Below the pieces are notes generated by a model. That model made no database searches and was not told where the DNA came from. It saw only the letters and a list, made by a program, of their open reading frames with translations. The position numbers were made by a program, and so were the translations under genes. This document shows positions 2,909 to 34,965 of a DNA stretch of 64,000 bases, one piece after another; the first letter of the stretch is position 1; every line of letters starts with the position of its first letter. This stretch comes from Sphingobacteriales bacterium (lineage in GTDB: Bacteria; Bacteroidota; Bacteroidia; Chitinophagales; LD1), in NCBI GenBank assembly GCA_018262795.1, contig JADFDM010000007.1, positions 124,001 through 188,000 of the forward strand, in the 5' to 3' direction.

Positions 2909-4429
2909 TCAATGTTTAAAATGGCGCACTCCTGTGAGCACCATTGCTTGACCTGCCATATTCGCTGCTTCAATGCTGTCAGTATCTTTAATGCTGCCTC
3001 CCGGTTGGGCTATAGCGGTAACGCCTGCTTGAGCTGAAATAGTGACACAGTCAGGGAAAGGGAAAAAGGCATCGGAGGCCATGACCGCACCGTGAAGGTC
3101 AAATCCGAATTCAGTCGCTTTTCGGATGGCATTCTGGAGAGCATCTACTCGGGAGGTTTGCCCACAATTGCTGCCGATTAATTGTTTGTTTTTTACTAAT
3201 GCAATTCCATTGCTTTTGAGGTGCTTCACGGCAATGATGGCAAAAGTTAGGTCGGCTATCTGCTCGGCAGAAGGGGCTTTTTCGGTGACAGTTTTGAAAT
3301 CTGATTTGCCTTCAGTTTTCCGGTCGGCATCCTGCTCCAAAATTCCATTCAACAAACTTTTAGAAACCTTTGCAGCCACTACTTTTTGTTTTTGTCTCAG
3401 AATTATCCGATTCTTTTTCGACTTCAGTAGTGCCAGCGCATCTTCGTCATAATCGGGGGCAATTACTACTTCAAAAAACAGCGTATTCATTTCCGTGGCA
3501 GTCGCCAAATCTAACTTTCTGTTGGTGGCAATTATTCCTCCAAAAGCAGAAACAGTATCGCAGGCAAAAGCGGCTTTGTAGGCCTCGCAAATGCTATCCC
3601 GCGAAGCCAAGCCGCAGGAGTTGGTATGCTTCATAATAGCTACGGTCGGCTCCTCAAATTCTGCGATTAGATTTACGGCTGCATCTACATCTACCAGATT
3701 GTTATACGACAATTCCTTGCCGTTTAGTACATCGAAAATCTCATAGAGGTTGCCATAGAAAATTCCTCGCTGGTGCGGGTTTTCGCCATACCGCAATACC
3801 TTTCCTTGCAGTTCACTTTTTTTGAAAACCTCGAACCCGAAACTGCGATTAAAATAATTGAAGATCAGCGTGTCGTAATGTGAGGAAAGCAGAAAGGCTT
3901 TTGCGGCAAATAGTTTGCGTTGCTCTATATCTGTTACTCCTCCTTTATCTTGCAAAAGTTGCAGTAAGTTTTCATAATCATTCCGAGAGGATATTACTAA
4001 TGTGTCCTTAAAGTTTTTCGCGGCTGCGCGAATCAGGCTTATTCCTCCAATGTCAATTTTTTCTATTATTTCCTCTTCGCTTTTTCTGGCTTTTACCGTT
4101 TCGTCAAAGGGGTATAAGTCCACAATCACCAAATCAATTTCCGGGATTTCGTACTGTGCCATTTCCTTTATGTCACTCTCATTATCTCTTCGACCCAGAA
4201 TGCCGCCAAATATTTTTGGGTGAAGCGTTTTTACCCGCCCGCCAAGAATTGAAGGGTAAGAAGTGATTTCCTCTACAGGTGTTACTTTAATGCCCAGGCC
4301 TTCTATAAAAGATTGAGTGCCTCCGGTAGAATAGATTTTGATACCTGACTTGTCTAATTCCTTTACAAGGAGGTCTAACTTGTCTTTGTAATAAACAGAG
4401 ATGAGGGCTGATTTGATTTTCTTTTGCAC
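2909..4429 (-). CDS. purH: Bifunctional AICAR transformylase / IMP cyclohydrolase
   Basis: 506 residues, the usual PurH length. It does the last two steps of IMP synthesis: formylation of AICAR with 10-formyl-THF, then ring closure. The N-terminal cyclohydrolase domain (about 1-190) shows KIYSTGGT and the conserved GGRVKTLHPKIFGGIL. The transformylase domain (about 200-506) shows the catalytic Lys-His in MKHTNSCGLA, with Ser where many homologues have Pro. The start is GTG at 4429; no in-frame ATG precedes the conserved N-terminus. A perfect TAnnTTTG box lies at 4447-4454, so it probably has its own promoter inside the purN-purH pair. Confidence 0.97.
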   Translation of the reverse strand: MQKKIKSALISVYYKDKLDLLVKELDKSGIKIYSTGGTQSFIEGLGIKVTPVEEITSYPSILGGRVKTLHPKIFGGILGRRDNESDIKEMAQYEIPEIDLVIVDLYPFDETVKARKSEEEIIEKIDIGGISLIRAAAKNFKDTLVISSRNDYENLLQLLQDKGGVTDIEQRKLFAAKAFLLSSHYDTLIFNYFNRSFGFEVFKKSELQGKVLRYGENPHQRGIFYGNLYEIFDVLNGKELSYNNLVDVDAAVNLIAEFEEPTVAIMKHTNSCGLASRDSICEAYKAAFACDTVSAFGGIIATNRKLDLATATEMNTLFFEVVIAPDYDEDALALLKSKKNRIILRQKQKVVAAKVSKSLLNGILEQDADRKTEGKSDFKTVTEKAPSAEQIADLTFAIIAVKHLKSNGIALVKNKQLIGSNCGQTSRVDALQNAIRKATEFGFDLHGAVMASDAFFPFPDCVTISAQAGVTAIAQPGGSIKDTDSIEAANMAGQAMVLTGVRHFKH

Positions 4430-4446
4430 CTGTAAGATTTTGCGCG

Positions 4447-4454
4447 CAAAAGTA
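4447..4454 (-). promoter_or_regulatory. Candidate -7 element for purH
   Basis: On the minus strand this reads TACTTTTG, an exact match to the Bacteroidota -7 consensus TAnnTTTG, 17 bases before the purH GTG. No good -33 TTTG was seen at the expected distance. The transcript leader would be short. Confidence 0.45.
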
Positions 4455-4499
4455 AAATCACTTTACAATACGAGGGCTAAGAATATAAACGCATGTTGA

Positions 4500-5063
4500 T
4501 TATGCTAAAACCTGTTCGATAGTTTTAGGGTACCATTCATGCTCTAACACCTGCACTTTGGTTGCCAGCGTGTGTGGGGTATCGGTTTTTTCGATGGCAA
4601 TTCGCTGTTGTAAGATTATTTCTCCCTCATCGTACTGTTCATTCACATAGTGGATGGTGATGCCTGTTTCCGTTTCATGATTTCCCAGCACGGCTTCGTG
4701 CACTTTTATTCCGTACATGCCTTTTCCCCCAAACTTAGGTAACAATGCGGGATGAATATTGACAATTTGACGACTGAATTTATGTAGAAGAAAAGCAGGA
4801 GCCTTTTGCAGAAAACCTGCTAAAACGATAAAGTCAATTTCTAAAGCATCTAACAAACGGCTCATAGTTGGTTCATCTTCCAGCGCTTTTTTACTCACAA
4901 TGGCCGAGATAATTTTGTAATGATGAGCAATTTGCAACACCCCGGCACCGGGCTTATTGGTGAGCACTAAGCTGACAGTTATAGAGGGATGATCTTTAAA
5001 ATATTCAATAATTGCCTGTGCATTTGTTCCCTGACCGCTGGCAAAAATGGCTATATGCTTCAT
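4500..5063 (-). CDS. purN: Phosphoribosylglycinamide formyltransferase (GART), PurN type
   Basis: 187 residues. Transfers a formyl group from 10-formyl-THF to GAR in purine synthesis. The N-terminal IAIFASGQGTNAQAI is the phosphate-binding loop of the family. The catalytic Asn/His pair is in VNIHPALLPKFGGKGMYG, and the catalytic Asp is in EQYDEGEII. It sits 70 bases upstream of purH on the same strand, so the two share a pathway and probably transcripts. A perfect -7 box at 5074-5081 lies only about 10 bases before the ATG, so its mRNA is likely almost leaderless. Confidence 0.96.
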   Translation of the reverse strand: MKHIAIFASGQGTNAQAIIEYFKDHPSITVSLVLTNKPGAGVLQIAHHYKIISAIVSKKALEDEPTMSRLLDALEIDFIVLAGFLQKAPAFLLHKFSRQIVNIHPALLPKFGGKGMYGIKVHEAVLGNHETETGITIHYVNEQYDEGEIILQQRIAIEKTDTPHTLATKVQVLEHEWYPKTIEQVLA

Positions 5064-5073
5064 GAGTAAAGTT

Positions 5074-5081
5074 CAAAAATA
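5074..5081 (-). promoter_or_regulatory. Candidate -7 element for purN, in the tail of a terminator
   Basis: Minus-strand TATTTTTG, a perfect TAnnTTTG match, ending 10 bases before the purN ATG. Its first base is also the last base of the terminator hairpin at 5081-5112, so the T-rich tail of the upstream terminator serves as the -7 region. Confidence 0.45.
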
Positions 5082-5112
5082 AAAAGAGGCGCAATAGTGA
5101 ACGCCTCTTTTT
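5081..5112 (-). terminator. Rho-independent terminator of the 5130-10472 gene
   Basis: Perfect 11-base inverted repeat (arms 5081-5091 and 5102-5112, AAAAAGAGGCG / CGCCTCTTTTT) with a 10-base loop, followed on the minus strand by ATTTTTG. It lies 17 bases after the stop of the large minus-strand gene and separates it from purN. Confidence 0.85.
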
Positions 5113-5129
5113 GTAAACCGTCATATTTC

Positions 5130-8100
5130 TTATTTGCCAACCACAAACTTTCGAGTTATTTTTTCGTCATTGTAATACACTCTGATAAAATACTCTGCTG
5201 CCCTCATTTTATCTACCGGAAGCGGATAGTCACTTCTCCCTTTCGGTAAATTGAGAGATAGTCCTTTGACCACATACTGACCTGCCAGGTCGGCAATATC
5301 AATAATAACGGAACCTGATTTCGGAAGAATTAATCCCAAATACGAAGCTCCTGCAACGGGATTGGGCGAAGGGCCTATCAACTGAATATGTTGATTAATG
5401 GCACTGCATTGGCTATTATTATCCACCCTTATTTCTGTTTCTCCGTGATTCACACTCACCGCTTCCACACATATATAAGAGTTGGCATTTTCGGGAGCTA
5501 CCACAAATTGTGCCCCGAAGATGGTATCCATAATTTGACCCGAATAAAGAATACCGTTCCATTCTTCCGAAATAATTCCTCCGCTGCCGATAGTGATATA
5601 AAACTTAGCCTGTGTAATAGTTCGAGTTCCCAAATTGGCAATTTTGGCCTTTGCGCCAATGAGGTACGAACCGTCTGTTTGCTGTGTTTGTATCACTGAA
5701 ACTTCTGTTACTGCTAAGTCGAGATCAGTCGGTTTCACGGTAAAGATTCGGGAAGAGCTATCCTCACAGCCCTCTGCGGAATAAGCAGTCAACTGAATTT
5801 GGAAAGAGTTGTTCTGCGTGTAAGTATGTATGGGGGTTTGCTCTGTTGAAATTTCAGAATCACCAAAGTTCCAGAGGTAAGAAGTGGCTCCGCTGCTTTG
5901 ATTAATAAAGTTTACGTCCACCGGTGCTTCTCCATAAAGTGGTGCGAAGTAAAACAAAGCAGTAGGGCGCGGCTTCACCGTGACCGCTTTAGTGATAGAA
6001 TCGGAACAACCGTTCAGGGTAGTCACCTTCAAGGTGACATTATAAATACCGGTGTCAGCAAAGAAATGTACCGGAGCGGGTTGAGTGTACTGAGTTCCGG
6101 CAATCGTCCATTTCCAGGTAGCGATGGTGTCATTATTCACCAAGCTGCTATCTAATGGAGTATAGTTTTCGCTGACGCAGGAAACCAAATCACCGAATGC
6201 CGCTTTCGGCTTCGTAACTATATTGATATTTTTTGATTCATAATCTACACAACCAATGGCGTTTTCAATTCGCAAACTCACATTGTAAGAACCCGGAACG
6301 GTGTACCTGTGCTTGGGGTTTTGCTTGGTAGAAAAGAAACTCAGATCGCCAAAATCCCATTGCCAGCTTACCACAGAGAAAGAGGCGGTGGCATCGGTGA
6401 ACAAGGTGCTGTCGCCCACACACACATTTCCAACATCAAAATTGGCTACCAATGGAGGAAACACATCTATTTTTTGGGTAATGGTATCAGCGCAGCCCGA
6501 CTTGGAAATAGCTTTCAGTTTTACCTGATAAGAGCCTACTCCCGGAAATTCATAAATAGGATTTTGGGCAGTGAGCGTATCGGTTCCATTGAAAGTCCAT
6601 ATCCAATGGGTGATCGAATCGCCAAAGAGGAAGATACTGTTATCTAAGAGTATAGTGGGCACTCCTGCACAAATAATATTCGGATAAGTAAAAGCCGGTA
6701 TCGGAGGCACCGATGAAGTAACCACCTTTGACTTAATACCTGTGCAGCCCGAATCGGTCACTATGCTCAGCGTCACGTAATAATCGCCTGGAGAGTTGTA
6801 GTAATGAGAAGGGTTGGGGATAGACGAACTCTGGCCATCTCCAAAATCCCAATGCCACGAAACGGTATTGTCCGGGCTAACCGGGGGGGTTATATCTGCC
6901 AACTGTGTGGTGTCGCCAAAGCAAACAACCGTTGAAGTGAAATTGATATTCGGAGCTATCCAACTGATGTTTACTTGAATGGTATCGCGATTCACGCATT
7001 GGTGATGGTTGGTAGCAATAGTGGAGTACTGACCCGATGTATTGAAACTCACGGTGGGAATCGAAGGTCCGTTGGACCATGCAATACTCGAAATAGAATA
7101 GCCCGCGGTATCTAACGCAATAGGGTTGCCGGAACACAAAGTGGTGTCATCGGGCAAGAGCGATTGGATAGAAAAACTATCAATCAGCACATGGATGGTG
7201 TCGGAGATAAATACACAAGTGTTGGTGTCGGTAATGGTGCAGAGGTAATAGCCACTGGAGTTGATGCTAATGCTTTGTGATGTTTCCAGCGTATTCCATT
7301 CAAAAGAATAAGGGGAAGCGGTGAGTACCGGGGCAATACTCAGCGGGCTGTAAAGGCACACAACTGTATCTTTTGGGCTAACTCCCAAATACGGAATAGT
7401 CACCTGTATCGTGTCGGAACTCACTCGGTCAAACACATCGGTGGTTTGCACCCAATACGCCCCTGCTTTTCGAGCCTGAATTTGTGAAGTGGTTTCACCG
7501 GTGGACCATAAATAGCTGACAAACCGATTACTCGCATCTAAGGTGACGGGGCACAGGCTATAGGCTTGATGAATATCGGGGCCGAGATTGACGGGAGGGG
7601 CATATTTGTTGTAAATGTAGCCTTCCACTTTTTGGCGCTCTAAGGAATCCAGTGCTTTTGTGTACACAATTATTTCTGCTATTTCTCCATTCCAGAATTG
7701 GGTGTTACCATCCCCTATATGGTAAGAGCCGGAAGTAAAAGGACTACTATATAATGTGCTATTACTTTTGCCAAGAAAAGTAGAATTCATGTAATAGTCA
7801 ACGGACGTCTGGTAAGTTTTAATTACTTCAACTAATGTATTTTGATAACCGGAATTCGGCATGGGCAGGTTTGTTGTCAGGTTGTTTCCATTGTTTCGAA
7901 TGACTAATGTATTTGCACTGCCTTGATACAAAATAAATCCGCTTCCTAAGCTACCAAGGCCTAAAAGATATTTGGCATTTGTCATCGAGGTATTAATCCC
8001 TTTGCTTACAATGAAAACTGATAAGGAGGAGGAATCTGCACCTATTATTGTTCCACCATTTAGAAAATCGTCAACGCCATCAAAACGTACAGCGGGATAG

Positions 8101-10472
8101 TTATTCAGTTCTGGAACGGAACTAACAATATTAGGTCTAAAAAGAGGGTTGCTGTTTTGGAAAGCGTCATTATTGCTACTGCTACCATCCTTCCACTGGC
8201 TAATTGCCCCCCCCGTTAAAATAACACCAGTGTCTGACCGAAGCCATAAAGAAAGACCACTTATGTTCGATGGATTAAAAATAGAAAATTGCCAAGTTGA
8301 GCTTTCGGAAGAATCATTGCAAATGTTGAAACTCTTTATTTTCCAAAAATAGGTTTGATTCCCCGGAAGTGTTAATTGGTAATCGGTATTGTAAATGTTA
8401 GAGTAAATTGACGCGTTGGTGAAGGAAGAGTCGGCAGATATTATCAATGAATATTTGTAGGCATTCAAAGATGACTCCCACTGGAAATTTGTTTGTGATG
8501 AGATAGTACTGGAGTTGTTAGCCGGAAGAGTAAGTAGGGGGGCTTGAGGAGAGTTATAAGTGCTAACAACTAGAATATTTCCAGCAGCAGTATCTGTACA
8601 GCCATTGGTAGCATGGACAACTAATTGTAAAAGAAAGTTACCTACAGAAGAATAAGCATGAGACGGATTCTGTTGTATGGAACTGCTATTATCTCCAAAG
8701 TCCCATTCCCACAAAGTAATACTGTCTCCCAATACAGGTATGCTAGAATCAAAAAACTGGTAGTCTGCTTGCAAACAAGAAGTGCCTCCTGAAAAACTTG
8801 CTTGAGGAATGGGCTTTACTTGTACGGTTTTAACGGAACTATTGCTACAACCCGCACTTGTTATAGCGGTTAAAGATACTTGGTATGTGCCCGGTACCGA
8901 ATAATTGTGTGTAGGATGAGCTGCTGAAGTCGTATTGCCATCCGCAAAGTCCCACTGATAACCTATAATAGTTGAAGTATCAACAGATTGGGAAGTGTTT
9001 TGAGGAACATAGGTGGTGCCGTAACAGAGGGTGTCCCCGGTAAAAGTAACGACCGGTGCGGTTCCTGAAATAGAGACCATTATAGAGTCCATGCCAATAC
9101 ACCCGAATGTATCACTAACGATTACACTCAACGGCCCGGGGGTGATTAAAGTTGTGAAAGGGGTTGTAGAGCCGGTAGACCAATTGAAATTGAGAGAGGG
9201 AAGTCCTGTTGAAGGTGAATTCAAGCCAATCGTTGTTCCCGAACAAATAGTGGTATCAGCGCCAAGAGAAACCGTGTAAGCGAAAGTATCAGTGGAAAGA
9301 ATTATGCTATTTGATGTGTTAGAGCACCCGTCATTTGTACTGGTTACAGTTACACTGACAGGAGTAGTGCCCGGAGTGGCATATATCCCTGGTGAAACTT
9401 CGCCATTGGACCATAAAAAGGCATAACCGGATCCTAATAATTGCGTCTGTAGTAAAATTGAATCTCCGGCACATAAAGTTGTGTCTACATGATTTAGTAA
9501 AGGGTGAAGAAGGCTAACATTTATGGTATCGGAGCTCATGTGCCCAAAAACATCCGTTGTTGTTACACTGTATGTGTTACTGCTATTTGCTGTAATTTGA
9601 TCAGTAGAACTTCCCGTTGACCATGCATAATTAGAGAATCTGCTACCTGCATTGAGATCTATGGGGCAGAGGCTATAAGTCTGTGTGGTATCAGCACCTA
9701 AATTTACCGGAGGGGAGTATTTATTAAACAGATAATTTTCTACTAAAATTCTATTGGCACTATTTAAAGCAGACTGATATACTATAATTTCTGCAATTTC
9801 CCCGCTCCAAAATTGACCATTACCATCTCCGATATGATAACCTCCATCTGTGAATGAAGCACTATTAGAAGCGGAAGTATTGCTATTTACAAATAACGAA
9901 TTTTTAAAATATTGGACACTTGTATTTAATGTTTTAATTATCTCAATAAGGCTATTGGGATAGCCTGAGTTTGGAATTGGAATACCTGTTGACAGATTGC
10001 TGCCTTTATTACGTATTACCAATTCGTTACCGCTACCTTGGAATAAGGTGTACCCGGTACTTAAATCGCCTATAGCAAATAAATATTTCGCATTAACTTG
10101 AGTGGTATTTATCCCCTTGCTTATAATAAAAATTGAAAGGGAAGAGTTTCCCAAACCCGACATAGTGGTTCCATTTAATAGATCATCTATTCCATCAAAA
10201 TGAACGGCCGGGTATCCATTGAGTTCGGGGACCGAAGGGTTGAGTGTAGGGCGATAACTAGAATCAGTATTTTGAACTGCATTATTATTATTACCACTAG
10301 CATCGAGCCATTGACTTACTCCTCCGGAGGTTAATACTACTCCACTATCAGCTTTAAGCCATAACGAAAGCCCGGCAATCTGATCTGGGGTAACCCCTTG
10401 CGCGGAAAGTCCAGCACCAACTAAAAGGATAAAGCATAACGCAACAATTTCTCTTCTGTAATTTTTTACCAT
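5130..10472 (-). CDS. Very large T9SS-secreted multidomain surface protein (LamG-like, PKD, CARDB-like)
   Basis: 1780 residues from the ATG at 10472 (a GTG two codons upstream is less likely). Signal peptide 1-24 ending LSAQ. Two LamG/concanavalin-like modules (about 35-255 and 738-960) share long near-identical stretches such as YHIGDGN and GEIAEIIVY, each followed by a PPVNLG linker and Ig-like repeats. PKD domains with the W-DFGD motif follow in both halves (about 490-640 and 1190-1610), then a CARDB-like domain (DLAVTEVSVI) and a C-terminal T9SS type A sorting domain (PSPNPVAG... ending KITRKFVVGK). It is expected at the cell surface, possibly binding carbohydrate or acting as an adhesin (inference). 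It lies 78 bases after the glycan operon on the same strand. The two halves are clearly an internal duplication. Confidence 0.9.
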   Translation of the reverse strand: MVKNYRREIVALCFILLVGAGLSAQGVTPDQIAGLSLWLKADSGVVLTSGGVSQWLDASGNNNNAVQNTDSSYRPTLNPSVPELNGYPAVHFDGIDDLLNGTTMSGLGNSSLSIFIISKGINTTQVNAKYLFAIGDLSTGYTLFQGSGNELVIRNKGSNLSTGIPIPNSGYPNSLIEIIKTLNTSVQYFKNSLFVNSNTSASNSASFTDGGYHIGDGNGQFWSGEIAEIIVYQSALNSANRILVENYLFNKYSPPVNLGADTTQTYSLCPIDLNAGSRFSNYAWSTGSSTDQITANSSNTYSVTTTDVFGHMSSDTINVSLLHPLLNHVDTTLCAGDSILLQTQLLGSGYAFLWSNGEVSPGIYATPGTTPVSVTVTSTNDGCSNTSNSIILSTDTFAYTVSLGADTTICSGTTIGLNSPSTGLPSLNFNWSTGSTTPFTTLITPGPLSVIVSDTFGCIGMDSIMVSISGTAPVVTFTGDTLCYGTTYVPQNTSQSVDTSTIIGYQWDFADGNTTSAAHPTHNYSVPGTYQVSLTAITSAGCSNSSVKTVQVKPIPQASFSGGTSCLQADYQFFDSSIPVLGDSITLWEWDFGDNSSSIQQNPSHAYSSVGNFLLQLVVHATNGCTDTAAGNILVVSTYNSPQAPLLTLPANNSSTISSQTNFQWESSLNAYKYSLIISADSSFTNASIYSNIYNTDYQLTLPGNQTYFWKIKSFNICNDSSESSTWQFSIFNPSNISGLSLWLRSDTGVILTGGAISQWKDGSSSNNDAFQNSNPLFRPNIVSSVPELNNYPAVRFDGVDDFLNGGTIIGADSSSLSVFIVSKGINTSMTNAKYLLGLGSLGSGFILYQGSANTLVIRNNGNNLTTNLPMPNSGYQNTLVEVIKTYQTSVDYYMNSTFLGKSNSTLYSSPFTSGSYHIGDGNTQFWNGEIAEIIVYTKALDSLERQKVEGYIYNKYAPPVNLGPDIHQAYSLCPVTLDASNRFVSYLWSTGETTSQIQARKAGAYWVQTTDVFDRVSSDTIQVTIPYLGVSPKDTVVCLYSPLSIAPVLTASPYSFEWNTLETSQSISINSSGYYLCTITDTNTCVFISDTIHVLIDSFSIQSLLPDDTTLCSGNPIALDTAGYSISSIAWSNGPSIPTVSFNTSGQYSTIATNHHQCVNRDTIQVNISWIAPNINFTSTVVCFGDTTQLADITPPVSPDNTVSWHWDFGDGQSSSIPNPSHYYNSPGDYYVTLSIVTDSGCTGIKSKVVTSSVPPIPAFTYPNIICAGVPTILLDNSIFLFGDSITHWIWTFNGTDTLTAQNPIYEFPGVGSYQVKLKAISKSGCADTITQKIDVFPPLVANFDVGNVCVGDSTLFTDATASFSVVSWQWDFGDLSFFSTKQNPKHRYTVPGSYNVSLRIENAIGCVDYESKNINIVTKPKAAFGDLVSCVSENYTPLDSSLVNNDTIATWKWTIAGTQYTQPAPVHFFADTGIYNVTLKVTTLNGCSDSITKAVTVKPRPTALFYFAPLYGEAPVDVNFINQSSGATSYLWNFGDSEISTEQTPIHTYTQNNSFQIQLTAYSAEGCEDSSSRIFTVKPTDLDLAVTEVSVIQTQQTDGSYLIGAKAKIANLGTRTITQAKFYITIGSGGIISEEWNGILYSGQIMDTIFGAQFVVAPENANSYICVEAVSVNHGETEIRVDNNSQCSAINQHIQLIGPSPNPVAGASYLGLILPKSGSVIIDIADLAGQYVVKGLSLNLPKGRSDYPLPVDKMRAAEYFIRVYYNDEKITRKFVVGK

Positions 10473-26792: not shown

Positions 26793-28148
26793 ATGACTGA
26801 AAAACAGATACTCGACTACGTGAAAAACCACCCTTCGCGCAAAGTAAAATTAGCCGTCACCGATTTAGATGGAGTGTTGCGAGGCAAATATATTTCTACA
26901 GAAAAATTCTTTTCGGTAGTGCAAGGGAATCTCGGTTTTTGCGATGTAGTGTTCGGATGGGATAGCAGTGATGCCGCCTACGATAACACGACCTATACCG
27001 GATGGCACACCGGATATCCTGATGCCAAAGCAAAGTTAGACCTGAGCACTTTTCGGAAAATACCTTGGGAAAATGATCTGCCGTTTTTTCTCGGTGATTT
27101 TATTGTAGATAAAAACACACCACTGCCCGTATGCCCACGTCAGTTGCTGCGCAAGGTGATTGGGGATGTAGAAAAGGCCGGTTACTCAATTGTTATTTCG
27201 CAAGAGTTTGAATGGTTCAATTTTGAAGAAACACCTCAATCGGCAGCGGAGAAGGGCTACAAAAATCTTTGTTCGCTCACCCCCGGCATGTTTGGTTATT
27301 CTATTCTCAGAAGTACACTCCGAAATGATTATTTCACAGCGCTGTTTGATGAGTTGAGCAAATTTGATGTGCCCATTGAAGGGTTGCACACCGAAACAGG
27401 CCCCGGTGTTTACGAGGCAGCCATTGCTCATGGAAAACCTTTACAAGGAGCAGACCGAGCCGTATTGTTCAAAAGCGGAACGAAGGAAATTGCTTATCGC
27501 TTTGGCATTCTTGCCACCTTCATGGCTAAAGTCAGTGAAAATCTTCCCGGTTGTTCAGGGCACGTACATCAAAGTCTCTGGGATAAAGCAGGCAAGAAAA
27601 ATTTTTTCTACGATGAAAAAAACAAGGATAAAATGAGTGAAGTGATGAAGAGTTACATGGCCGGTCAACTTTATTGCTTGCCTTTTATTCTGCCTATGAT
27701 TGCGCCTACGGTCAATTCGTATAAGCGATTAGTAGAAGGAGCCTGGGCACCCACCACTTTAACATGGGGGCTTGATAACAGAACGGTGGCTTTGCGTGCC
27801 TTGCCCGGCAGTTCTAAATCGAGCCGAGTAGAAACCCGCATGGTTGGGAGTGATAGCAATCCCTACTTAGCTTTTGCTGCTTGCATGGCTGCCGGACTCT
27901 ATGGAGTGAAAAATAAACTCAAACTACAAACCCCCACTAAAGGGAATGGCTATCGCGATACTTCGCATGGTATTCTCCCTTCTAACCTTTGGGAAGCTAC
28001 GCAGGCGATGAAGAATAGTGCAGTGAGTAAAGAATTATTTGGAGAGAAATTCGTAGAGCATTTTGCTCAAACTCGCGAGTGGGAATGGCGGCAGTTTCAG
28101 CGAGTGGTAACCGATTGGGAAACCAAACGCTATTTTGAAATTATTTAA
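26793..28148 (+). CDS. Glutamine-synthetase-family ligase (PuuA/GlnA4/FluG-like)
   Basis: 451 residues. The GS fold is intact: N-terminal beta-grasp with AVTDLDGVLRGKYI, metal-binding Glu in ISQEFEWFNFE (about 135) and TETGPGVYEAAI, metal/substrate His in CSGHVHQSLW, then APTVNSYKRLVEGAWAP and RVETRMVGSDSNPYLA. The sequence is of the type that ligates glutamate to organic amines (gamma-glutamylputrescine, ethanolamide, isopropylamide) rather than housekeeping GlnA (family inference). It is the first gene of a plus-strand cluster with a gamma-glutamyl hydrolase and two dehydrogenases, which strongly suggests gamma-glutamylation of an amine. Substrate unknown. Confidence 0.88.
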   Translation: MTEKQILDYVKNHPSRKVKLAVTDLDGVLRGKYISTEKFFSVVQGNLGFCDVVFGWDSSDAAYDNTTYTGWHTGYPDAKAKLDLSTFRKIPWENDLPFFLGDFIVDKNTPLPVCPRQLLRKVIGDVEKAGYSIVISQEFEWFNFEETPQSAAEKGYKNLCSLTPGMFGYSILRSTLRNDYFTALFDELSKFDVPIEGLHTETGPGVYEAAIAHGKPLQGADRAVLFKSGTKEIAYRFGILATFMAKVSENLPGCSGHVHQSLWDKAGKKNFFYDEKNKDKMSEVMKSYMAGQLYCLPFILPMIAPTVNSYKRLVEGAWAPTTLTWGLDNRTVALRALPGSSKSSRVETRMVGSDSNPYLAFAACMAAGLYGVKNKLKLQTPTKGNGYRDTSHGILPSNLWEATQAMKNSAVSKELFGEKFVEHFAQTREWEWRQFQRVVTDWETKRYFEII

Positions 28149-28840: not shown

Positions 28841-31111
28841 ATGAAGAAATCTGCTATTCTGCCATCCCCTACCTTTTTCGCTGCTGACTGGCCGCAAGAA
28901 GGTCCCATTGATTTGAAAATTCACGACTTGCCACATGCATCTTCGTCCACTGAGTGGTGGTATATGCATAGTCACATTAAGACGAAAGGCGGGAAACAAT
29001 TTTCACTTTTTACTTCTTTTTTTCGCCATGCTATCGGCTTCGATAAAAAAACAAAAGTGCCCGATTATGCGCATTCAATTATCTGGGGAATATCGGATCT
29101 CGAGAACAAGAAATACTACACCGTTTCGCTGGTGGATAAGCGCGCACCTAAGCTCGGATTGCAGCGATTGAAGAAAGGTGAAATAGTGAAGGACTCTCAC
29201 ATTAAAAGAGCCGCTATAGAGATGCTCAAGAAAGGGGTAATGCCTTATCCGGATGAGTTGCTAACCAAAGACCCAACCATCTCCAATACTCGTTTATCGC
29301 TTGATTTTGATGGGAACACTTTCAAAAAATTACCGGATGGTTCGTACGCATTGCATCTGAAACACAAAGAACTTGAGTTAGAGGTGGATCTCAATTTTAA
29401 GCCACAGAAACCTCCGGTTCGTCATGGTGATAATGGAGTGGTGCGCGGGGTATCGGCAGAGGATATGTTTTACTATTTCATTCCGAAATGTAAAGTGACA
29501 GGCAGTTTGAAAATAAAGAAGGAGAAGTTGGCAGTGCAATCGGCCACCGGCTGGTACGATCATGAGTTTGGATGCCACCCTCCGGGAAAGGAAGATCAGA
29601 AGGACGACATGAAGAAGGATGTGTCATGGAACTGGATTGCCATGCAGTTGGATAATGGTTGCGAGTTGACTGCCTATGATTTAATAGATTTAAAAACCGG
29701 AGAAGACTGCGGCTCCTTTATTATCATGATTGATGCAAAAGGCAAGCGGCACTATTCCAACAAATTCCACTTGAAACCATTAGGTGACTTGTGGACGAGC
29801 ACCCGCACCTTTAACGAATATCCTCAAGCCTGGATAGTAGAAGCTCCGGAGTTCGGATTGAAAGTGAAAGCAGAAGCGGCTTTCCCCAATCAAGAGTTTG
29901 CCACTGTTATTTCTAAACCCGCTTTTTGGGAAGGGCGAATGAACATTACCGGAACACTGAAAGGAAAAAAGGTGAGGGGCCCGGCTTATATCGAGCGCCA
30001 CGGTTTTGTGAACAGCAGCAACATGAAGGAGTTTCTGAAAGCTGTTTCAAAAGCTACCCTCAACTCGGTGAGTCAAATATTACCACTTGAGTTTGGAGAG
30101 GAAAAGTTTGAAGAGTTGGTTTCAAAAAAAGGGAATCGTCACTTAGTGAAAGGCTTAGACAAGAAAGCGTATGTCGAAAAATTTATAAAGCCAATTCGTG
30201 AAATCACCGACCGCAGCGGGAAGAGTTGGCGCAGCTATGCCACCATTGCTTGTTGCGATGCCGTAGGCGGAAACTCGCAGGTAGCTATTGACTGGCTGGC
30301 ACTGCCCGAACTGATGCACGTAGGTTCGCTGATGGTGGATGATGTGCAAGATAAATCATTAGTGCGCAGAGGCGGCCCGGCTGCTCATGTGGTACACGGA
30401 GATGCGATTGCTATCAATTCCGGAACGGGTGCTTATTTCATCGGGCAGTACTGCATCTACAACGTGGACAAATCATGGGAAGAAAAAGTGCAAATCTACA
30501 ACTGGTATTTCGAGGCCATGCGAGCTTCTCATAGCGGGCAGGCGATGGATATTTACGGCTTGGACTACCTGATGCCGGCTGCGTTGAAGGATGATAAAGT
30601 GGCGGCACTTTTACAAGAAAGAGTCATTGCTACCCACCGCTTAAAGAGTGCTGCTCCCGCTGCATACTTGGCGCGTATTGGGGTATTGCTGGGCGAGGGA
30701 ACAAAGGAACAAACCGAGGCAATGGGCAGTTATTTCGAAGCGCTTGGAATTTCCTTCCAAATTATTGATGATACACTGAATTTGAAAGGATTTAAAGATA
30801 ACCTGAAAACGAAAGCCGAGGATATTACCGCAGGCAAAATCACTTACCCGGTAGCAAAAGCAATGGCAGTGCTGAGCAAGAAAGATCGCGCGCGCCTTTG
30901 GGAAATTGTAAGTGCTAAAACCTCAGATATAAAGCTGATTAGCGAAGCCGTTGCTTTGATGGATAAGCATCAGGTGATTGAAACCTGTGAGAAAGAAGCT
31001 AAAGCTATCCTCGAACGCGCTTGGAAAAAAGTGGATCCGCTATTGCGCGACAGCATGGTAAAACTCAACCTCCGTGCCTTTAGTTGGTTTGTGTTGGAGC
31101 GGACATATTAA
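28841..31111 (+). CDS. Fusion: CrtC/AttH lipocalin-like domain + trans-polyprenyl diphosphate synthase
   Basis: 756 residues, no signal peptide. Residues 1 to about 385 match the CrtC/AttH (carotenoid 1,2-hydratase-like, double lipocalin) family: EWWY at 38-41, GWYDHEFG at 237-244, WNWIAMQLDNG, and PAYIERHG near 385. Residues about 400-756 are an all-helical prenyl synthase: GKSWRS, first Asp-rich motif DDVQD at 500-504 followed by RRGGP, GQAMDIYG, second motif DDTLN at 643-647 (Asn replaces the last Asp), and GKITYPVA. Both halves look intact in one reading frame. CrtC-like domains hydrate, cyclise or rearrange terpenoids or polyketides; the second half makes allylic diphosphates. A self-contained terpenoid-forming enzyme is inferred. 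It lies 224 bases after the membrane protein gene and may have its own promoter. Confidence 0.85.
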   Translation: MKKSAILPSPTFFAADWPQEGPIDLKIHDLPHASSSTEWWYMHSHIKTKGGKQFSLFTSFFRHAIGFDKKTKVPDYAHSIIWGISDLENKKYYTVSLVDKRAPKLGLQRLKKGEIVKDSHIKRAAIEMLKKGVMPYPDELLTKDPTISNTRLSLDFDGNTFKKLPDGSYALHLKHKELELEVDLNFKPQKPPVRHGDNGVVRGVSAEDMFYYFIPKCKVTGSLKIKKEKLAVQSATGWYDHEFGCHPPGKEDQKDDMKKDVSWNWIAMQLDNGCELTAYDLIDLKTGEDCGSFIIMIDAKGKRHYSNKFHLKPLGDLWTSTRTFNEYPQAWIVEAPEFGLKVKAEAAFPNQEFATVISKPAFWEGRMNITGTLKGKKVRGPAYIERHGFVNSSNMKEFLKAVSKATLNSVSQILPLEFGEEKFEELVSKKGNRHLVKGLDKKAYVEKFIKPIREITDRSGKSWRSYATIACCDAVGGNSQVAIDWLALPELMHVGSLMVDDVQDKSLVRRGGPAAHVVHGDAIAINSGTGAYFIGQYCIYNVDKSWEEKVQIYNWYFEAMRASHSGQAMDIYGLDYLMPAALKDDKVAALLQERVIATHRLKSAAPAAYLARIGVLLGEGTKEQTEAMGSYFEALGISFQIIDDTLNLKGFKDNLKTKAEDITAGKITYPVAKAMAVLSKKDRARLWEIVSAKTSDIKLISEAVALMDKHQVIETCEKEAKAILERAWKKVDPLLRDSMVKLNLRAFSWFVLERTY

Positions 31112-31252: not shown

Positions 31253-32392
31253 ATGCCTATTTCTCAATTCAACTTTCCTACCACCATCCGTTTCGGAGCA
31301 GGGGTCATCAAAGAACTTCCTGATTATTTAAAGAAGAACCACCTGAGCCGACCTTTGGTAGTGACCGACCCCAATGTGGCGCAATTGGGTTTCTTTAAAG
31401 CGATTATTGAAGACTTAAAAGCAAAGGGGCTGGCGGTAGAAGTGTTCGGCAACATTCATAAAAATCCTGTAAAAAGCGATGTGTATGCCGGAGCCGATGC
31501 GTATGATGCGCACAAAGCAGATAGCATTGTCGGTATTGGTGGCGGGGCAGGATTAGATGTGGCGCGCTCTATTTTGCTGCGCATCAACCATCGTGAAGAC
31601 TTGTTTAAGTATGATGATTTGATTGGAGGCGATGTGTATGTGACCAATGAAGTGCCGCACTTTGTCACAGTTCCTACAACTTCGGGCACCGGAAGCGAAG
31701 TGGGCCGCAGTGCTATTATTGCGGATGATGTAACGCATGTAAAGCACATTTTGTTCTCTCCCAAGCTACTCGCAAAAATTGTATTTGCCGATCCGATGCT
31801 CACGATGGAGCTTCCCGGATTTATTACCGCAGCCACCGGCATGGATGCACTTACGCATAACATGGAAGCATTTCTTGCCAAAAATTATCATCCGATATGT
31901 GACGGCATCGCCTTAGAAGGAATGCGGTTGATTTCACTTTCGTTAGAGAAAGCGACCCACCAACCCGACCTCGAATCGCGCTCGCAGATGTTATTGGCAA
32001 GTATGATGGGAGCCATTGCTTTTCAGAAAGGATTGGGAGTGGTGCACTCGCTGGCGCATCCGCTCTCGAGTTTGCTCGATACGCATCACGGATTGGCCAA
32101 TGCGGTAAATATTCCTTATGGTATGAAATACAACATCGAAGGGTTTGAAGAAAAATTCAGACGGATGGCGCGCGCCTTAGACCTGAAAGATGAAACCGGT
32201 GAAGGGGTAGTGAATTATTTGTTTGAGTTGAATACGAAAGTGGGAATACCTCACAAGTTGCGGGAAATAGGAGTGAAAGAAGAACACTTGGAAACCTTGG
32301 CCGACCTGGCCTTTGCTGATTTCGCTCATCCGAATAACCCGAAGCCGGTGAGTAGAGCTGATTTTCGTGCATTATACGGAGAAGCACTTTGA
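31253..32392 (+). CDS. Iron-containing alcohol dehydrogenase
   Basis: 379 residues, group III ADH. NAD-binding GIGGGAGLDVARSI (about 95-108), PTTSGTGSEVG, metal-binding region MDALTHNMEAF and the His-rich GVVHSLAHPLSS followed by THHGLANAV. These enzymes interconvert alcohols and aldehydes with Fe2+ or Zn2+. No aldehyde-dehydrogenase domain is fused. Same strand as the ligase and hydrolase genes; it would fit oxidation of an alcohol group on a gamma-glutamylated amino alcohol, or of a prenyl alcohol (inference). Confidence 0.94.
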   Translation: MPISQFNFPTTIRFGAGVIKELPDYLKKNHLSRPLVVTDPNVAQLGFFKAIIEDLKAKGLAVEVFGNIHKNPVKSDVYAGADAYDAHKADSIVGIGGGAGLDVARSILLRINHREDLFKYDDLIGGDVYVTNEVPHFVTVPTTSGTGSEVGRSAIIADDVTHVKHILFSPKLLAKIVFADPMLTMELPGFITAATGMDALTHNMEAFLAKNYHPICDGIALEGMRLISLSLEKATHQPDLESRSQMLLASMMGAIAFQKGLGVVHSLAHPLSSLLDTHHGLANAVNIPYGMKYNIEGFEEKFRRMARALDLKDETGEGVVNYLFELNTKVGIPHKLREIGVKEEHLETLADLAFADFAHPNNPKPVSRADFRALYGEAL

Positions 32393-32471
32393 TAATGTGA
32401 TGATTTGCTAATGAAAACTCAGTTGCTTAAGAATTTCTTACTACTCATTACACACTACTAAATATCATCTC

Positions 32472-33179
32472 ATGAAAATAGGAATCACCTTCACCGAATC
32501 GCGCTGGGACAATTACCCGAAATGGATACAGGGCAATGACGCTACGATTGAGATTGTTGCATTGCATTGGGATAAACACGGATTGACCGAAATATGGGAT
32601 GCGGTGGCAAATTGCGATGGTATTGTGCTGACCGGAGGGGTAGATATTCATCCGAAGTTTTATGAAAACGAGCGGTTGGTATTTCCGAATGGCGATGGCG
32701 AGTTTAACGAAGCCCGCGATGAATTTGAAATGCACGTGTTTGAAACTGCCCTTAACTTGGAAGTGCCGGTGTTGGCTATTTGCAGAGGGCTGCAATTGGT
32801 AAACGTAGCACTGGGAGGCGATTTGATTCAGGACTTGGAAGAAGCCGGGAAGAAAAACCACCGCAGAATGAATGAAGCAGATGATGAACATGCTATCACC
32901 GTAACTGAAAATACCCTTTTGCGAGAGATAACTGGAGTAGCTTCGGCTTTGGTGAATGGGGCGCATCATCAAGCGATTGGAAGATTGAGCGATGAGTTAA
33001 TTGTGTCGGCTCTTTCACCTGATGGAGTAGTAGAAGCGGTAGAGTGGAAACATAAAGAGGAGGACCCCTGGATGCTGGCCGTGCAGTGGCACCCTGAACG
33101 AATGAAGGACCAAGACTCCAACCCTTTTTCAAAGAATATCCGCGAAGCGTTTCTCAAAGAGATAAATAAGAAGCGGTAA
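32472..33179 (+). CDS. Class I glutamine-amidotransferase-type gamma-glutamyl hydrolase (peptidase C26, PuuD-like)
   Basis: 235 residues. Nucleophile Cys104 in LAICRGLQLVN, His207 and Glu209 of the triad in QWHPERM, oxyanion region IVLTGGVDIHP. This family cleaves gamma-glutamyl amides, as in gamma-glutamyl-GABA hydrolysis of the Puu pathway. It has no synthetase domain, so it acts alone. Lies 79 bases after the alcohol dehydrogenase and 38 bases before the four-helix protein, in the same cluster as the ligase that could make its substrate. Confidence 0.92.
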   Translation: MKIGITFTESRWDNYPKWIQGNDATIEIVALHWDKHGLTEIWDAVANCDGIVLTGGVDIHPKFYENERLVFPNGDGEFNEARDEFEMHVFETALNLEVPVLAICRGLQLVNVALGGDLIQDLEEAGKKNHRRMNEADDEHAITVTENTLLREITGVASALVNGAHHQAIGRLSDELIVSALSPDGVVEAVEWKHKEEDPWMLAVQWHPERMKDQDSNPFSKNIREAFLKEINKKR

Positions 33180-33217
33180 GTTTTAAGTGCTGAGTGGCAA
33201 GTAAAATGTAATAAGTG

Positions 33218-33604
33218 ATGAACGAAAAGAAAAGCATTGTGTCGGAAAAAAGTTTTGCTTTCTCTTTAGAAATTCTCTCTCTTTATAAGGAATTGATGGC
33301 AGTGAATGAGTTTGTGATTTCTCGGCAACTACTCAAAAGCGCTACGAGTATTAGGGTCAACGTTGAAGAAGCATTAGCAGGGCAAACAAAAAAAGATTTT
33401 GCGACTAAAATGTCCATCGCCTCAAAGGAGGCAAGAGAAACCAGGTATTGGTGGCCTCTGCTCAATAAAAACCTATTAGTGCCAACTAATTACTCGGAGT
33501 ATTTACTGGATATAGAGGAACGGATAAACACGCTAACTGCGATAGTAAAAACAACCCAAAGTAATCTTTCACCCAAAACTTATCACTTAAAACTTCTGAA
33601 ATGA
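33218..33604 (+). CDS. Four-helix bundle protein (23S rRNA intervening-protein / S23 family)
   Basis: 128 residues from ATG 33218 (GTG one codon upstream also possible). Typical layout of the family: FALEIL-type first helix (SFAFSLEILSLYKEL), ISRQLLKSATSIRVNVEEA, FATKMSIASKEARETRYWWPLL, then a C-terminal helix. Members occur in rRNA intervening sequences and as stray genes in many Bacteroidota; their role is unclear. Here the gene is not in rRNA. It overlaps the start of the aldehyde dehydrogenase by 4 bases (ATGA) and lies between two enzymes of the cluster. Confidence 0.88.
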   Translation: MNEKKSIVSEKSFAFSLEILSLYKELMAVNEFVISRQLLKSATSIRVNVEEALAGQTKKDFATKMSIASKEARETRYWWPLLNKNLLVPTNYSEYLLDIEERINTLTAIVKTTQSNLSPKTYHLKLLK

Positions 33605-34965
33605 AAATTATCAATCCCGCGACTGAAGCAATCATTGCCCATGTGAAGGAAGACAGCAAAGCCTCTTTGAAGAAGAAACTATCCCTACTTCGCGAAGGGC
33701 AGAAGAAATGGAGCAGGGTTTCTTTAAAGAAGCGAATCGCTATCCTCCAAAAATTTTCTGCTTTACTAAAAGCAAATACTGAGCAATGTGCTCAAGTGCT
33801 TACCCGCGAAGTGGGCAAGCCCCTGCCACAAAGCCGCAATGAAGTGAATGGCGCTTGCGGTCGCGCTAAGTGGCTTACGGAGAACGCAGAAAAATATCTC
33901 AGCGATGAAGTGATGAGCGATGAGGGCAACACCAAAGAAGTGATTCGCTACGAGCCACTGGGAGTGGTGTGCAACATCAGCGCATGGAACTATCCGTACT
34001 TGGTGGGTACTAATGTTTTTGTTCCCGCATTACTTGCAGGCAATGCGGTGTTGTATAAGCCTTCGGAATACGCGACTCTCACCGGCTTCGAGATTGAAAA
34101 GCTGCTGAAGAAGGCCGGGGTACCCGACCATGTTTTTCAGGTGGCTGTGGGTGCGCGCGAAGTGGGGGCTGCCCTGCTCGACATGGATTTTGATGGTTAC
34201 TTCTTTACCGGTTCGTATGCTACCGGAAAATTTATCTACGAAAAAATTTCTCCCCGAATGATTCCCTGCGGTTTGGAACTGGGGGGCAAAGACCCGCTGT
34301 ATGTGGCTGCCGATGTGAAGGATATTAAGAGCGTGGCCGCAGGCACTGCCGATGGCGCTTTTTACAACAACGGACAAAGCTGTTGTAGTGTAGAGCGCAT
34401 TTATGTGCATGCAAAAGTGTTCGATAAATACGTGGAGGAGTTTGTGAAGGAGGTGAAGAGTTATAAGCTGGGCAAGCCGACTGAAGAGGGAGTTTACATA
34501 GGCGCGCTTACCCGCGAAGCACAACTGAAAGTGGTGGACGCGCAGGTGAAAGACGCGGTGAAGAAGGGAGCAAAGGTTTTGACCGGAGGGAAGAAACTTT
34601 CGGGCAAAGGTCACTTTTACGAGCCTACGGTGCTGGTGAATGTGAACCACAAAATGAAGGTGATGCGCGAGGAAAGTTTCGGGCCGGTGATCGGCATACA
34701 GAAAGTGAAGAGTGATGAAGAAGCACTGCAACTGATGAACGATACCGAATACGGATTAACGGCTGCGGTGTATTCCTCCTCACTATCGCGAGCCGAAAAA
34801 CTGCTGGCGCAAACCAACTCTGGCTCCGGCTATTGGAACTGTTGCGATCGGGTAAGCCCCGCACTCCCGTGGAGCGGACGCAAGCACTCCGGCTTTGGCT
34901 CCACGCTTTCGCATGTGGGCTTGCGGGCATTTACTAAACCTAAGGGCTTGCATTTGAGAGGATAG
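33601..34965 (+). CDS. Aldehyde dehydrogenase, NAD(P)-dependent
   Basis: 454 residues. Catalytic Cys261 in NNGQSCCSVERI, general-base Glu226 in CGLELGGKDP, NAD-binding ISAWNYPYLVG and KPSEYATLTG, and REESFGPVIGI. The family oxidises aldehydes such as gamma-glutamyl-aminoaldehydes, succinate semialdehyde or glyceraldehyde; the closest subgroup cannot be set by eye. The ATG overlaps the four-helix gene stop (ATGA), so translation is coupled. Last gene of the cluster. It would turn the aldehyde made by the alcohol dehydrogenase into an acid (inference). Confidence 0.94.
   Translation: MKIINPATEAIIAHVKEDSKASLKKKLSLLREGQKKWSRVSLKKRIAILQKFSALLKANTEQCAQVLTREVGKPLPQSRNEVNGACGRAKWLTENAEKYLSDEVMSDEGNTKEVIRYEPLGVVCNISAWNYPYLVGTNVFVPALLAGNAVLYKPSEYATLTGFEIEKLLKKAGVPDHVFQVAVGAREVGAALLDMDFDGYFFTGSYATGKFIYEKISPRMIPCGLELGGKDPLYVAADVKDIKSVAAGTADGAFYNNGQSCCSVERIYVHAKVFDKYVEEFVKEVKSYKLGKPTEEGVYIGALTREAQLKVVDAQVKDAVKKGAKVLTGGKKLSGKGHFYEPTVLVNVNHKMKVMREESFGPVIGIQKVKSDEEALQLMNDTEYGLTAAVYSSSLSRAEKLLAQTNSGSGYWNCCDRVSPALPWSGRKHSGFGSTLSHVGLRAFTKPKGLHLRG

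Follow-up and report, generated by a model that had tools for sequence, protein, structure and literature searches.

Introduction

The closest described relatives of the gene studied here come from two enzyme families, CrtC-type lipocalins and trans-prenyl diphosphate synthases. In CrtC, alanine mutants at His239, Trp241, Tyr266 and Asp268 are inactive and Asp268 is the proposed proton donor (Hiseni and co-workers, excerpt of PMC4717167), and the same excerpt compares the mechanisms of CrtC and squalene-hopene cyclase. CrtC also converts some C20 geranylgeraniol and is inactive on shorter chains, according to an excerpt of a review (PMC6013536). Here we describe gene P0001, located in a window of 64,000 nucleotides (the whole stretch of DNA analysed; contig JADFDM010000007.1, positions 124,001 to 188,000, of the Sphingobacteriales bacterium assembly GCA_018262795.1), in which a lipocalin of this type and a prenyl diphosphate synthase are joined in one chain. 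The fusion is real, conserved and widespread, though patchy; both folds are found in a structure model and in structure matches, catalytic positions are conserved, the two halves have diverged in a correlated manner, and tailoring genes are linked to the fusion in some relatives. We tentatively favour a geranylgeranyl diphosphate (GGPP) synthase fused to an acid-catalysed prenyl hydratase, whose product would be ready for glycosylation.

The fusion shares with CrtC (from Rubrivivax and Thiocapsa, and from four further relatives) the CrtC Pfam lipocalin domain, an Asp at the place of D268 and aromatic residues at the places of W241 and Y266. CrtC, in contrast, is encoded by a separate gene, acts on a carotenoid substrate and has His239 where the fusion has Asp; the 290-amino-acid CrtC of Roseobacter litoralis had no Pfam hit at E 0.01. 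Kievitone hydratase (Protein Data Bank (PDB) entry 7a0q) and AttH (2ich) have in common with the fusion the whole-domain fold and the Trp and Asp of a W-x-D stretch, but are single-domain proteins that lack a prenyl synthase and carry Arg at the position of the fusion's H241. Human and yeast GGPP synthases (9hjz, 2dh4) share the synthase motifs and the Tyr-Phe and His floor places, yet stand alone. The fungal bifunctional copalyl diphosphate synthase PvCPS (6v0k, 8v0f) likewise joins a prenyltransferase to a domain that works on the prenyl product and has the same DDxxN motif, but its chain is longer and its partner domain is a class II cyclase rather than a lipocalin. Each half of P0001 thus belongs to a known family, and the combination, above all a four-domain form described below, is the new part. 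No published account of a lipocalin–prenyl synthase fusion was found by title or start of abstract among open-access PubMed Central articles with the terms used.

One reading frame with two folded halves

The sequence-only reading of this stretch had proposed a CrtC/AttH lipocalin–prenyl synthase fusion in a single frame of 756 codons, and this proposal is borne out. Positions 28841-31111 (+) translate as one open frame of 756 residues plus stop, the named motifs lie at the positions given for them, with GKITYPVA at residues 665-672, and all three Pfam domains score well above their curated cut-offs. The one reverse-strand frame translated contained many stops. The gene is single-copy in the window genome, which also carries two further prenyl synthase genes and one further CrtC-domain gene. 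Its parts are as follows (n/41 refers to 41 aligned related proteins):

28841..31111, +, lipocalin–prenyl diphosphate synthase fusion P0001, a 756-codon open reading frame (ORF), intact in one frame in 54/66 homologous loci
28949..29572, +, CrtC N-terminal lipocalin domain, residues 37-244 (Pfam PF07143, E 4e-21)
28952..28963, +, EWWY motif, residues 38-41, invariant in 41/41
29459..29485, +, EDMFYYFIP, residues 207-215, with D208 and F210 at the places of CrtC H239 and W241
29549..29572, +, GWYDHEFG, residues 237-244, in which W238 corresponds to CrtC Y266, and D240 to D268, the proposed proton donor
29615..29998, +, second lipocalin-like domain Lipocalin_9, residues 259-386 (Pfam PF17186, E 5e-20)
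30002..30223, +, junction between the halves, residues 388-461, 74 residues long in 41/41
30182..30961, +, trans-prenyl diphosphate synthase domain, residues 448-707 (Pfam PF00348, polyprenyl_synt, E 5e-43)
30338..30352, +, first Asp-rich motif DDVQD, residues 500-504, with D500, D501 and D504 in 41/41
30434..30439, +, Y532-F533, in 41/41, at the place of the yeast GGPP synthase chain-length floor (alignments)
30530-30532, +, H564, in 41/41, with Y532-F533 at the place of that floor
30767..30781, +, second Asp-rich motif DDTLN, residues 643-647, with D643, D644 and N647 in 41/41

Domain search and structure prediction support the folds that had been claimed for both halves. The AlphaFold2 model (input of 41 sequences) has a predicted local distance difference test score of 89.2 and a predicted template modelling score of 0.87, and places helices at residues 395-413, 420-427 and 441-456 of the junction. 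In the first half, the CrtC Pfam domain scores 76.8 bits against a cut-off of 22.5, and the predicted two-part lipocalin fold of the AttH/kievitone hydratase superfamily spans the whole domain, matching AttH 2ich (Z 35.8, 304 residues, root-mean-square deviation (rmsd) 2.6) and kievitone hydratase 7a0q (Z 32.2, 301 residues, rmsd 3.0) in a comparison with PDB structures. The second half scores 147.5 bits for PF00348 against a cut-off of 27 and matches many PDB prenyl synthases, the best being 1wy0 (Z 36.8, 326 residues, rmsd 2.3).

Conservation and spread of the fusion

Searching the genome collection for six exact peptide patterns returned 66 related loci, which is a biased lower bound. Of these, 54 are intact single frames, 10 are cut at a contig end and two are frame-broken, L032 near the start and L067 within the junction. 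Record titles assign the loci to several groups of Bacteroidetes, to Deltaproteobacteria/Myxococcales, to the cyanobacterium Iningainema, to a metagenome-assembled genome of Verrucomicrobia, and to one contig binned as Thermoplasmata. The last may be misbinned, since its GC content is 0.71 and it joins two Myxococcales rows, with weak support, in the trees of both halves.

Whole-genome searches at E 1e-60, in which each count includes the centre genome and some partial contig-end matches, found the fusion in 24/30 genomes of the window's family (18/22 among good genomes). Across the window's phylum, 4/395 genomes matched, two of the four at only 26% identity, while matches occurred in 38/282 genomes of the phylum of the Myxococcales locus L036 and in 1/292 genomes of the phylum of Iningainema, that genome being Iningainema itself. 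A plasmid search added fusions in Tolypothrix, Streptomyces canus and Nitrosomonas stercoris.

A sequencing error that removed a stop codon between two separate genes had been named as a finding that would undo the fusion. We rejected this explanation, along with assembly error and chance, and regard the probability of a sequencing or assembly error as negligible: the frame is intact in 54/66 loci, whole-genome matches occur in 38/282 and 24/30 genomes, and the junction has the same length in all 41 aligned proteins, whereas a frame broken in the junction occurs in one locus of the 66. That locus (L067:7974-10246) is from Flavobacterium sp. Root935, and its single frame break may be either an error or a genuine split.

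Catalytic positions and a proposed reaction

By domain, helical fold and catalytic positions, the second half is assigned as a trans-prenyl diphosphate synthase. Its two Asp-rich motifs are of the DDxxD and DDxxN types, the latter also present in PvCPS and yeast GGPP synthase (alignments). Residues R458, K461, R464, D500, D501, D504, R509, R510, K602, Q640, D643, D644, N647 and K656 are invariant in 41/41 proteins, and K666 is kept in 39/41. Y532, F533 and H564 align with the Tyr-Phe and His of PvCPS and of yeast GGPP synthase, in which Tyr107, Phe108 and His139 presumably form the floor of the chain pocket; this correspondence suggests a C20 product, GGPP.

For the lipocalin half, four CrtCs were taken from plasmid records, two annotated as carotenoid 1,2-hydratase, one as hydroxyneurosporene dehydrogenase and one unannotated. 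All four have H-x-W, 24 residues and Y-x-D, the published spacing. A MAFFT alignment of these with 17 fusions and three AttH-like proteins places the columns of CrtC H239, W241, Y266 and D268 at D208, F210, W238 and D240 of the fusion, each invariant in 41/41, the D208 assignment crossing a three-residue length difference between the two stretches. An initial mapping of CrtC D268 to D280 was dropped, as the spacing in the four CrtCs puts D268 at D240. Among the essential CrtC residues only the Asp is therefore identical in the fusion, two being replaced by other aromatics and the His by the fixed Asp D208, a place taken by Ala or Tyr in the three AttH-like proteins. Many further aromatic residues of this half are invariant in 41/41. 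In the distant fusions, the acid is kept in the Tolypothrix form, replaced by Glu in S. canus and by Ser in N. stercoris, whose domain is also shortened. The N. stercoris gene, located on a conjugative plasmid (L096:5449-7398) and decayed in its lipocalin half, is followed by genes for an FMO-like monooxygenase and an LCM-type methyltransferase.

In the sequence of steps that we propose, the C-terminal half would condense isopentenyl diphosphate with an allylic primer to GGPP, and the lipocalin half would take up the same chain, or an alcohol or glycoside made from it. D240 would protonate the terminal isoprene double bond, with D208 assisting and aromatic residues lining the pocket, and the resulting tertiary cation would be quenched by water. 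The tertiary alcohol thus formed would be usable by glycosyl- and sulfotransferases, domains of which lie on the same chain in two homologues, and intermediates might be channelled between the halves. The use of geranylgeraniol by CrtC (excerpt of PMC6013536) fits, by analogy, a lipocalin supplied with C20 chains. The sequence-only reading had also raised Diels-Alder-type catalysis, for which this analysis offers no support other than membership of a common domain family; the nearest solved enzyme of known reaction among the matches listed is a prenyl hydratase, kievitone hydratase, and the absence of Diels-Alderases from those listed matches carries no weight.

The similarity of the synthase core to PvCPS raises a different outcome for the same protonation. 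Internal double bonds rather than water could quench the cation and yield a cyclic diterpenyl diphosphate, so that the chain would be a new bifunctional terpene cyclase reaching, in an unrelated fold, the result of the class II domain of fungal copalyl diphosphate synthase. Residues 485-670 have as their closest PDB sequence the prenyltransferase half of that fungal enzyme (6v0k, 1e-17), followed by human and plant GGPP synthases. The acid D240 is retained, the CrtC His is lost, P450 genes follow the fusion in L038 (together with an FkbM methyltransferase gene) and in L065, and the published comparison of CrtC with squalene-hopene cyclase (excerpt of PMC4717167) points the same way. However, the matched lipocalins with a known reaction are a hydratase and a phosphate lyase. 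No class II cyclase Pfam domain was detected in P0001 up to E 0.1, and a DXDD motif, absent from P0001, occurs in the lipocalin half of only 3/41 proteins, at differing places. We consider cyclisation unlikely, though a serious contender to the GGPP synthase–hydratase that we favour.

Joint evolution of the two halves

Pairwise identities of the two halves correlate across 41 related sequences (Spearman rho 0.82, with kinship among the sequences making a p-value meaningless), and the junction stretch G388-K461 is 74 residues long in every one of the 41 aligned proteins. The two halves, as judged from these alignments, evolve together. For trees of each half, we used 12 of the 41 aligned rows (29 left out) and added distant fusions, five for the synthase half and four for the lipocalin half, from which N. 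stercoris was omitted because its domain has decayed. Of the placements that had been called for, that of the synthase half, in a small tree, unites the 17 fusions with two unfused Streptomyces synthases in a single group (support 99/96). This group stands apart from the window genome's two other synthases and from R. litoralis CrtE, with long branches leaving the outer joins unsure. The lipocalin tree settled less and is weighed below. One of the unfused genes, the lone synthase of Streptomyces NBC_01431, adjoins a divergent pair of ABC transporter genes, like the S. canus fusion.

Gene neighbourhoods and four-domain homologues

In some relatives the genomic context points to terpenoid tailoring, through mevalonate genes, glycosyltransferases, P450s and fused glycosyl- and sulfotransferase domains. 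The most telling case is a protein of the cyanobacterium Tolypothrix (WP_096622351; L094:9607-14133; 1509 aa; 35% identical to P0001), in which the same lipocalin–synthase pair is preceded by a sulfotransferase and a glycosyltransferase (GT28 N-terminal and EryCIII-like C-terminal domains). A homologue of equal length and domain order (L127:5075-9601, 1509 aa, 36% identical to the Tolypothrix protein) lies behind a sulfatase gene in genome G549, a member of the phylum of L036.

Among the two-part fusions, HMG-CoA reductase, GHMP kinase and diphosphomevalonate decarboxylase genes lie divergently beside the fusion in L007 (domain scan), and mevalonate genes adjoin it in the same way in L008 and L031 (by cluster); by coordinates, all three loci are in the window's genus. 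In L047 the fusion is followed by an HMG-CoA synthase gene. In 7/66 loci the next gene in the same direction encodes a glycosyltransferase (L014, L038, L039, L047 and L068 by Pfam, L057 and L065 by cluster). The order in L038 is glycosyltransferase, fusion, LMF1-like protein, FkbM methyltransferase and P450, and L057 is arranged likewise by cluster. The LMF1-like protein, a 760-aa relative of lipase maturation factor 1, is encoded directly after the fusion in three loci (L038:10264-12546 by Pfam; L057:10246-12528 and L065:10208-12502 by cluster). A separate family of about 205 residues occupies that position in five others (L035:10299-10907, L036:10241-10954, L043:2583-3200, L045:6394-7143 and L062:1773-2405), and the one member scanned, from L035, had no Pfam or NCBIfam match. 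The distant fusion L077/L118 adjoins a CrtI/CrtD-like gene, which we treat as weak evidence. The scanned neighbours of L078/L119 resemble housekeeping genes. Neighbours of L118 and L119, compared for similarity in two pairs, were unrelated.

Transporter genes in this survey bear on another possibility, that the lipocalin half is a non-catalytic pocket which binds the prenyl product and passes it on to an exporter or a membrane enzyme. The Tolypothrix and S. canus fusions have ABC transporter genes on their flanks (the Tolypothrix gene sits between genes annotated as ABC exporter membrane fusion protein and DevC), an AttH-like gene adjoins an FtsX-like permease gene in Caballeronia, and the N. 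stercoris fusion lacks the acid. On the other hand, the invariance of D208, F210, W238 and D240 and of many aromatic residues in 41/41 proteins seems to go beyond what binding would need. A carrier role is improbable in our view, though it too is a serious contender, and we favour a catalytic lipocalin.

Isoprenoid genes and the question of substrate

The window genome (98.4% complete) encodes HMG-CoA reductase and a single gene of the squalene synthase/phytoene synthase (SQS/PSY) type. The latter lies outside the window, in L114 (G000:C14:218000-232000), where an SQHop-type cyclase (4064-6217, -), the squalene/phytoene synthase (6393-7622, +) and a squalene epoxidase (7619-8998, +) probably serve sterol biosynthesis. 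The sole SQS/PSY gene is most likely a squalene synthase. As it adjoins the squalene epoxidase gene, no obvious phytoene synthase is left for carotenoids. A carotenoid substrate is thus unlikely, rather than excluded, because the genome also has three CrtD/CrtI-like genes (68, 29 and 29% identical to the gene in L024). The CrtD-like gene that follows the fusion in L024 was considered as strong evidence and rejected, as the window genome has a similar operon, its CrtD-like gene 68% identical, some 80 kb away from its own fusion. The remark in the sequence-only reading that this is not a standard carotenoid layout agrees both with this gene set and with R. litoralis, in which two distinct genes encode CrtC and the polyprenyl synthetase.

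Both halves could nonetheless be enzymes fused for co-expression only, the lipocalin having a different substrate, such as a carotenoid, the side chain of a sterol or a prenylated compound of foreign origin. In favour are the SQS/PSY, squalene epoxidase, SQHop-type cyclase and CrtD/CrtI-like genes of the genome, and a 25-phosphosteroid lyase appears at rank 20 of the Foldseek list. That match is poor, however (TM 0.27/0.49, rmsd 10.5), and both the position of the sole SQS/PSY gene and the fixed 74-residue junction speak against the idea, which we judge very unlikely.

Weighing the assignment

Several observations count against a GGPP synthase–prenyl hydratase. The function of every fusion member is a prediction from sequence and model. 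In the lipocalin half, the essential His of CrtC is an Asp, and the acid at the place of D240 is retained also by AttH proteins, whose function is unassigned. The lipocalin half is not always needed, given the acid loss in N. stercoris and the two unfused Streptomyces synthases inside the fusion clade, which make losses or separate fusions possible. The lipocalin tree leaves the distant fusions unplaced, with a single fusion group in 30% of bootstrap trees. For the synthase half, the best PDB match varies with the query (plant GGPP synthase for the whole chain, archaeal GGPP synthase 1wy0 for the family profile), and scores fall below the NCBIfam equivalog cut-offs for GGPP synthases (81.8 vs 500 bits for GGPP_syn, 121.4 vs 468 for IdsA_Meth). 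The linkage counts are raw, taken without a background rate from a scan of about a third of 81 co-directional neighbours.

The window itself adds to this side. Genes for a glutamine-synthetase-like protein, an iron-containing alcohol dehydrogenase, a C26 amidotransferase and aldehyde dehydrogenases flank the fusion (26793-28148, 31253-34965) and look like amine metabolism or catabolism; no crt gene was found among the eight window neighbours scanned with Pfam. Good matches to these neighbours occur in only 2/66 loci, L006 (iron-containing alcohol dehydrogenase, amidotransferase and second aldehyde dehydrogenase) and L024 (glutamine-synthetase-like protein, small membrane protein, first aldehyde dehydrogenase and a small 158-aa protein), while weak aldehyde dehydrogenase matches (26-31%) in four other loci represent distant relatives. 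A gamma-glutamylation/terpenoid cluster in the window was rejected on this recurrence. The neighbours may instead form a gamma-glutamyl-amine catabolic cassette unconnected with the fusion, because the glutamine-synthetase-like gene of L024 follows an ethanolamine permease gene (TIGR00908 above cut-off). A 129-aa ORF at 33215-33604 ends just within the aldehyde dehydrogenase gene that begins at 33601.

The proposal that the protein makes and modifies a terpenoid is therefore upheld in part: folds, active-site positions and the tailoring context in some relatives agree with it, while the window's flanking genes do not resemble a terpenoid cluster.

Implications

A broader interpretation, which we hold to be possible though open to considerable doubt, is that lipocalin–prenyl synthase fusions represent a new class of bifunctional terpene enzymes found in several phyla. 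In these, a CrtC-type lipocalin would protonate the tail of GGPP made on the same chain and start hydration or a class II-like cyclisation, and the four-domain forms would be single-chain assembly lines on which a diterpenoid is built, modified, glycosylated and sulfated. Such enzymes, if confirmed, would constitute an unrecognised route to modified diterpenoids in Myxococcota and Bacteroidota. Genome mining for terpene synthases is likely to miss the fusion gene, because no canonical terpene synthase flags it. The poorly understood mechanism of CrtC/AttH lipocalins would become testable with a defined substrate, and the four-domain form would provide a ready-made catalyst for making a terpenoid that carries both sugar and sulfate.

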